NCBI GenBank assembly: GCA_013176395.1
Contig: JABMLP010000009.1
Span: forward strand, 992,001 to 1,056,000
Length of the DNA stretch: 64,000 nt
DNA from: Venturia oleaginea
Taxonomy: Eukaryota; Ascomycota; Dothideomycetes; Venturiales; Venturiaceae
Direction: 5' to 3'
Positions 24,275 to 24,482 of this stretch are shown one piece after another; positions within the stretch are counted from its first letter, which is position 1; every line of letters starts with the position of its first letter. Made by a program: the position numbers and the translations under genes. The notes below the pieces were generated by a model. It ran no database searches and was not told the origin of the DNA. It worked only from the letters and a program-made list of their open reading frames with translations.

Positions 24275-24289
24275 GGCTCTATGGTCTAG

Positions 24290-24339
24290 GTCAGTTACCT
24301 TGGGTATATGTCGTTACAACCACGACTAATGAAACATAG
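24290..24339 (+). other. GT-AG intron 1 within the D loop of tRNA-Pro
   Basis: 50 bp. It begins GTCAGT directly after tRNA position 15 and ends ATAG, with GACTAAT as a branch-point candidate ten or so bases before the acceptor. Size and signals match spliceosomal introns of protein genes in this window, not tRNA-endonuclease introns. Confidence 0.75.
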
Positions 24340-24349
24340 TGGTATGATT

Positions 24350-24403
24350 GTGAGTATCTCAATCATTCCAAAGACGATGAGCAGAATACTAATTATACTA
24401 TAG
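24350..24403 (+). other. GT-AG intron 2 between D arm and anticodon arm of tRNA-Pro
   Basis: 54 bp. It begins GTGAGT directly after position 26 and ends TATAG, with TACTAAT as a near-perfect branch point. Its location at 26/27 is not the 37/38 position used by nuclear tRNA introns. Confidence 0.78.
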
Positions 24404-24470
24404 CCTGCTTTGGGAGAATGATTCTAAGATGCAGGAGGCCCCGCGTTCGAATCGCGGTGGAGCCCCGTTC

Positions 24471-24482
24471 TTTTGTGTTTTT
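24471..24482 (+). terminator. RNA polymerase III terminator
   Basis: A T4 run at 24471-24474 and a T5 run at 24478-24482 begin six bases after the tRNA-Pro 3' end. This is the usual position and form for Pol III termination. Confidence 0.75.

Follow-up and report, generated by a model that had tools for sequence, protein, structure and literature searches.

A nuclear tRNA-Pro(TGG) gene of Venturia oleaginea that appears to carry two spliceosomal introns beside a canonical one, as part of a genome-wide pattern

Can a nuclear tRNA gene be interrupted by introns of the kind that the spliceosome removes from mRNA precursors? The question is raised by a tRNA-Pro(TGG) gene of the fungus Venturia oleaginea, located in a 64,000-nucleotide (nt) stretch of assembly GCA_013176395.1 (contig JABMLP010000009.1, positions 992,001 to 1,056,000), which as a whole is called the window. 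The gene, at 24275-24465 (+), is intact and divided into four exons, which yield 72 nt with C73 once joined. A preliminary description made from the letters alone had recognised in the joined exons a 72-nt tRNA-Pro(TGG) with C73, and had pointed out two GT...CTAAT...AG inserts of 50 and 54 nt at tRNA positions 15/16 and 26/27. Its coordinates all proved exact on re-reading, ARAGORN agrees with the tRNA assignment after intron removal, and both the sequence and the paralogues bear out the two inserts. Judged from sequence, this is very probably a functional nuclear tRNA-Pro(TGG) gene with two U2-class spliceosomal introns and one canonical intron, whose RNA polymerase III (Pol III) transcript would be processed by the spliceosome and then by the tRNA endonuclease. 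The parts of the gene are as follows.

24275-24289 (+): exon 1, positions 1-15 (acceptor 5' strand, positions 8-9, D stem 5' strand, A14 and G15), with the same letters in the copies on contigs C2, C11 and C34.
24290-24339 (+): mRNA-type intron 1 at 15/16, 50 nt, GTCAGT...TAG, an insertion relative to the paralogue C34:1308998.
24326-24330 (+): branch-site motif CTAAT of intron 1, its A 10 nt before the 3' end, read from the sequence.
24340-24349 (+): exon 2, positions 16-26, 10 nt, from the sequence and the paralogue comparison.
24350-24403 (+): mRNA-type intron 2 at 26/27, 54 nt, GTGAGT...TAG, an insertion relative to C34:1308998.
24389-24393 (+): branch-site motif CTAAT of intron 2, its A 11 nt before the 3' end, read from the sequence.
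24404-24414 (+): exon 3, positions 27-37, anticodon TGG included, from the sequence and ARAGORN.
24415-24429 (+): canonical 15-nt tRNA intron at 37/38, given by ARAGORN as a 15-nt anticodon-loop intron and 15 nt long in all four Pro(TGG) copies.
24430-24465 (+): exon 4, covering positions 38-73, from the 3' strand of the anticodon stem through the variable loop and the T arm, which includes the B box, to the acceptor 3' strand and C73.
24471-24482 (+): probable Pol III terminator, TTTT at 24471-24474 and TTTTT at 24478-24482, read from the sequence.

The spliced gene is reported by ARAGORN as tRNA-Pro(tgg), and the unspliced gene as no tRNA at all without the intron option and as a wrong tRNA-Leu(aag) with it. 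Scans of the 64-kb window by Rfam and by ARAGORN gave no match at all and so missed this tRNA-Pro copy, as expected because the gene is interrupted. Two proteins encoded in the window share 84-90% identity with proteins of Venturia inaequalis and V. effusa, as befits a Venturia-like dothideomycete. The assembly searched comprises 46.08 Mb in 61 contigs, the window being C61:992001-1056000, and a pattern search found the first 15 bases of the gene at four places in it. A count of other Pro(TGG) genes was suggested in the preliminary description; three were read besides the window copy. The copy on C11 (C11:1019201) carries both inserts, identically placed but diverged in sequence, that on C2 (C2:1331125) only the first, and that on C34 (C34:1309051), which was used to place the inserts, neither, so that the four copies have 2, 2, 1 and 0 mRNA-type introns at common sites. 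Against the uninterrupted C34:1308998, intron 1 allows four sliding placements, one of them GT-AG, and intron 2 allows three, of which the GT-AG one is 54 nt long. A search with the 3' half of the gene led to the four Pro(TGG) copies and to a Pro(CGG) gene (C1:112406), as well as to a close place at C56:499331 and a more distant one at C1:454124. The C34 copy has one T-stem mismatch (C-C by eye), and in the C2 copy (C2:1331022) A replaces T54. By its sequence the window gene does not look dead, given that it has no stem mismatch, that T runs follow its 3' end and that its mature sequence is the same as that of the C11 copy, though the introns of the two differ.

The window gene was confirmed to be one case of a genome-wide pattern. 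The search used a custom tRNA finder in which a gene may contain as many as two GT..AG gaps, each 35-130 nt long, and no further splice signal is considered. On the real sequence 114 of 326 T-loop anchors score at least 60 (duplicates unmerged, mitochondrial tRNAs included), against a best score of 55.5 among 113 anchors on the reversed sequence. The first catalogue from this finder held 22 mitochondrial and 53 nuclear tRNAs, and later stretches bring the nuclear total to 59. At least one mRNA-type intron is present in 20 of these 59 nuclear tRNA genes or copies (30 introns altogether), a catalogue figure bound by the limits of the search rather than a genome total, the 59 including decayed initiator-like copies such as C13:712886 and C15:296615. 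The catalogue is without Ala(AGC), Arg(ACG), Val(AAC), Tyr, Trp, Cys and a clear elongator Met, and one gene called CAT (C34:367075) resembles Glu(CTC) by eye; a BLAST search with a yeast-like Arg(ACG) tRNA query gave no match, which is uninformative by itself. The intron-bearing genes are:

Pro(TGG), three genes; Pro(CGG), one.
Leu(AAG), five; Leu(CAG), two; Leu(CAA), two; Leu(TAG), one.
Ser(AGA), two; Ser(GCT), one.
Arg(TCT), one; Arg(CCG), one; Gly(CCC), one.

Read by hand, their introns lie at 15/16, 18/19, 20/20a, 22/23, 26/27, 30/31 and from 50/51 to 53/54, covering the D-arm region, 26/27, the anticodon stem and the T arm. A tRNA-Leu gene on C59 combines mRNA-type introns at 15/16, 30/31 and 51/52 with a 34-nt canonical intron. 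All five Leu(AAG) genes read are interrupted in the D-arm region. The Leu D-arm pattern, searched genome-wide with up to one mismatch, occurs at nine places, where only Leu(TAA) on C20 and a Leu(CAA) on C34 are uninterrupted. The exact spliced junction of the 30/31 intron of the C59 gene was also met uninterrupted at C60:649646 in a pattern search; this is a sixth possible Leu(AAG) place and is not among the five. No mRNA-type introns were found in the initiator Met, Thr(TGT) and Asn genes of the catalogue, nor by eye in Ala(TGC) in L091 and Ser(CGA) in L002, two genes outside the finder and not among the 59. A pattern joining exon 1 of the Pro gene to the 5' splice site had no match in the viral contigs. 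With the introns removed, all 19 genes submitted to ARAGORN were assigned a tRNA for the expected amino acid, 13 of them having given no tRNA before (the set leaves out L140, which has a finder score of 70.5). Standard tRNA searches thus miss such genes, as the window copy had illustrated; of the 20, 6 appeared among the matches of a whole-genome Rfam tRNA search.

The boundaries of the inserts were placed by comparison with an uninterrupted paralogue through exact 13-nt matches, which leaves one to six possible placements per intron. A GT-AG placement is present in 15 of 15 introns placed in this way (eight in a first round and seven in a second); a few introns have placements of other length as well, none of them GT-AG. 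Six of the 14 pairs of the first round were unplaced, and four of these were placed later with another paralogue. The introns of C17:59464 and C11:387148 (first intron) were left unplaced, the remaining ones had no suitable paralogue, and in all introns outside the placement test the GT-AG ends were set by the finder or manually.

Signal statistics were collected on 29 introns, that of L140 having been added later; all 29 have GT and AG ends, mostly by construction. At the 5' splice site, G is found at position 5 in 26 and A or G at position 3 in 26, and the 3' splice site is YAG (Y, pyrimidine) in 25 of the 29. The branch motif was assessed on 27 introns, for whose detection it had not been used, two introns found through CTRAY (R, purine) being excluded. 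With its A 7-20 nt from the 3' end, CTRAY occurs in 24 of the 27, compared with a mean of 2.3 and a maximum of 7 in 500 rounds of shuffling and with 0 in the reverse complement. Over all 29 introns it is present in 26, the A lying 8-13 nt from the end except for one at 18. The median length is 51 nt, with 27 of 29 introns between 47 and 57 nt and the others at 69 and 89. For comparison, eight mRNA introns in the window were obtained by spliced alignment of glycerol kinase and TFIIH p62 homologues, with GT-AG imposed; seven of them measure 49-63 nt and one 166. The branch motif is CTRAY in five of these eight, always as CTGAY, and CTAAY in 19 of the 27 tRNA introns. The tRNA introns thus look like those of this small mRNA sample, with the CTAAY form commoner in the tRNA introns, in keeping with the earlier remark that the inserts carry signals like the mRNA introns nearby. 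By the sequence tests able to decide, the view that the inserts are spliceosomal introns is supported. Group I or group II introns were also considered and rejected because inserts of 47-89 nt are too short; no Rfam match at gathering score was found in the window.

The spliced products are conserved where the introns are not. In nine paralogue pairs (13 intron pairs), intron identity is 0.57-0.73 against 0.57-0.64 after shuffling, the best pairs being slightly above the shuffled level and the others at about chance, whereas exon identity in the same nine pairs, with the fast-changing canonical intron included, amounts to 0.86-0.97. As with the Pro copies on C61 and C11, the mature sequences of Leu(AAG) on C2 and C9 are identical. 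The 29 introns show no similarity to each other in BLAST at E 0.01. With G-U counted as a pair, acceptor, anticodon and T stems are free of mismatches in all 19 intron-bearing genes scored, a set that leaves out C4:1381410, and in 28 of 39 others. A canonical 37/38 intron is present in 14 of the 19 scored genes, and ARAGORN gives one in C4:1381410 too; since canonical and mRNA-type introns occur in the same genes, the two intron classes would share one precursor.

T runs downstream of the genes are consistent with transcription by Pol III. At least five T are found within 60 nt 3' of 15 of 16 intron-bearing genes (three with less than 60 nt of 3' flank being excluded) and of 28 of 37 others, the background being 54 of 836 flank windows; a T5 inside the gene body was noted in three Gln genes or copies. 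By eye the B box is kept, and at the T-arm sites the G before TTC is restored by the terminal AG of the intron. The A box is likewise kept with introns at 18/19, 20/20a and 22/23 (by eye), and at 18/19 the GT of the intron restores its GG. Introns are also carried by U6, itself a Pol III RNA. Seven genomic places exceed the cut-off for U6, three of which were read, two having mRNA-type introns and one being truncated; the four further places match over 103-109 nt, that is, with no extra length. The two intron sites differ, one lying after AGAGAA and one after GCATG. The two genes are:

C12:1178091-1178250 (L133) and C36:59841-60006 (L134): U6 genes with mRNA-type introns, ending in T8 or T6.

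No sign of introns was seen in the listed matches to 5S rRNA (36, of at most 121 nt) or to the RNA of the signal recognition particle (one), although interrupted copies could escape the search. In fission yeast, intron-containing U6 is bound by Lsm2-8, suggesting that its splicing follows 3' end processing (PMC10484740).

Other explanations of the interrupted genes were weighed against these data. Spliceosomes normally act on RNA polymerase II (Pol II) transcripts, so the tRNAs might instead be embedded in long capped Pol II precursors, spliced by the spliceosome and then released by RNase P and RNase Z, and by eye the 5' splice site at 15/16 does replace part of the A box. Such an origin is unlikely, and is disfavoured because of the T runs behind 15 of the 16 genes; the retained B boxes (by eye) and the T8 and T6 ends of the two intron-bearing U6 genes point the same way. 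A relaxed tRNA splicing endonuclease, like the one acting on ectopic tRNA introns in a red alga and in nucleomorphs, is very improbable as the agent of removal, because it would not be expected to leave GT-AG at 15 of 15 placed introns, a branch motif in 24 of 27 and lengths of 47-57 nt in 27 of 29; a bulge-helix-bulge with a four-pair central helix (G-U allowed) was found in none of the 29 introns.

Another idea is that the interrupted genes are dead copies left by a burst of intron-like insertions, translation relying on copies free of mRNA-type introns. Pro(TGG), Leu(CAA), Ser(AGA) and Ser(GCT) do have such copies, and a base is missing from the T arm of one intron-bearing copy. This explanation is nevertheless improbable and fits poorly because of the contrast between exons and introns, the latter having diverged to about chance while the spliced products stay near-identical with mismatch-free stems in 19 of 19. 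The mutual dissimilarity of the 29 introns and the presence of introns in all five Leu(AAG) copies read, the sixth place on C60 being outside this count, likewise stand against it. The preliminary description had named other intact Pro(TGG) copies, together with the lack of a spliced product from this locus, as the mark of a dead gene here; a copy free of mRNA-type introns does exist on C34, yet it is this copy that has the T-stem mismatch, and the stems of the window gene are intact. Chance GT and AG dinucleotides near broken tRNAs are easily found, which is all that favours reading the inserts as accidents. That reading has a negligible probability and is refuted by the paralogue-defined placements; the low scores of the reversed sequence, the sites common to several paralogues and the branch and length statistics also contradict it.

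Several observations weigh against functional tRNA genes spliced by the spliceosome from Pol III transcripts. The ARAGORN anticodon disagrees in two of the 19 spliced genes, both within Leu. CTRAY is missing from three of the 27 introns. When boundaries were left free and assessed by a generic cloverleaf score, 13 of 27 introns had the called boundary among their top scores, an indecisive outcome because such a score tolerates many D-loop and canonical-intron lengths. Since Pro(TGG) has the C34 copy without mRNA-type introns, the window copy might be dispensable. On the side of transcription, the partial loss of the A box at 15/16 counts here too, and an upstream TATA precedes 4 of 16 intron-bearing genes, which makes it rarer there than among the other genes, where 16 of 37 have one; the controls give 22 of 288 windows. 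Runs of at least five T are absent from the introns, where shuffles predict 0.82, and two T4 runs are present; because this depletion is not significant, the case for Pol III rests mainly on the downstream T runs. Some copies evidently decay, as follows from the lost T-arm base of C4:1381410, a gene that by its sequence may be dying, from the A in place of T54 at C2:1331022, and from a Leu-like pseudogene.

This pseudogene (L138, C34:343485-343715) lacks part of the tRNA and keeps a T-arm GT..CTGAT..AG intron, and was not counted among the intron-bearing genes. Nor was an Arg(TCG)-like sequence (L115, C45:1547090) counted, in which GTAGGT stands right behind TTCGAG in the T loop and no 3' exon lies in the stretch fetched. 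Two initiator-Met-like copies (L106, C15:296163, and L099, C13:712467) have stem mismatches, and the 3' end of L106 is partly repeated. A near-identical duplicated stretch with degenerate tRNA-like sequence occurs at C19:646219 (L111) and C60:820714 (L112), one copy being near a contig end. The short contig C58 (18,945 bases) has two tRNA-like genes (L051 and L052) in an inverted duplicate near 9.7-10.1 and 17.0-17.4 kb, and is possibly a linear mitochondrial plasmid.

Functional genes transcribed by Pol III and served by the spliceosome thus remain the explanation that we favour. Transcription would start from the internal boxes and run to the T-run terminator, and the introns at 15/16 and 26/27 would be removed as lariats by the spliceosome. 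Once the cloverleaf can form, the tRNA endonuclease and a ligase would remove the 37/38 intron, and end processing would come last to give a normal tRNA. CTC and CTT leucine codons are presumably read by tRNA-Leu(AAG). With all five genes read for this tRNA interrupted, decoding in this lineage probably depends on the spliceosome; two unrelated splicing systems would act on single Pol III pre-tRNAs, and the supply of tRNA would therefore be coupled to spliceosome activity.

If this is true, and about one third of the catalogued tRNA genes carry spliceosomal introns, the spliceosome can handle tRNA precursors even when an exon measures no more than 10 nt, two splicing systems meet on one RNA, and translation is linked to splicing. 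We know of no report of spliceosomal introns in nuclear tRNA genes. The preliminary description had likewise known of none, and no description was found in the open-access literature (by titles and the starts of abstracts, subscription literature being mostly outside), nor in the available parts of PMC10484740, PMC5832005, PMC3978253, PMC13149111, PMC11782384 and PMC6461891. A 2026 review describes tRNA splicing as independent of the spliceosome (PMC13149111). The intron kind is known already, as are intron-bearing Pol III genes (U6); as far as the open-access literature searched goes, a tRNA gene set with such introns in a large share of its genes, accompanied by canonical ones in the same precursors, seems not to have been described. 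The findings suggest that, contrary to textbooks, the mRNA splicing machinery is also needed for tRNAs, and the genome would be a natural setting in which to study how Pol III genes gain introns.

The closest known system is that of the fungal U6 small nuclear RNA genes, in which mRNA-type introns have reportedly been described by Tani and Ohshima in 1989 and 1991 and by Canzler in 2016. These introns are, like those in the tRNA genes, short, spliceosomal and located in a small Pol III RNA gene, and occur in this genome as well; unlike a tRNA, U6 is a component of the spliceosome and lacks a competing intron for the tRNA endonuclease. Lichen fungi also have spliceosomal introns in their nuclear rRNA genes, again non-coding and not transcribed by Pol II, but there the product is a Pol I rRNA. 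Canonical 37/38 tRNA introns differ from the mRNA-type ones in being removed by endonuclease and ligase, in lacking GT-AG ends and a branch motif, and in their one fixed site. Fungal U3 small nucleolar RNA introns are normal spliceosomal introns in a small structured RNA, present or absent between paralogues as here; according to that account no small structured RNAs other than U3 and U6 are known to be frequently interrupted by an intron, and the part of it available makes no mention of tRNAs with spliceosomal introns (PMC5832005). Disruption of many nuclear tRNA genes is shared with the ectopic and permuted tRNA genes of the red alga Cyanidioschyzon merolae and of algal nucleomorphs, with 34 of 43 nuclear tRNA genes disrupted in C. 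merolae; few C. merolae protein genes have spliceosomal introns, and its disrupted tRNA genes, unlike those of V. oleaginea, have junctions of bulge-helix-bulge type and are processed by the tRNA endonuclease (PMC3978253).
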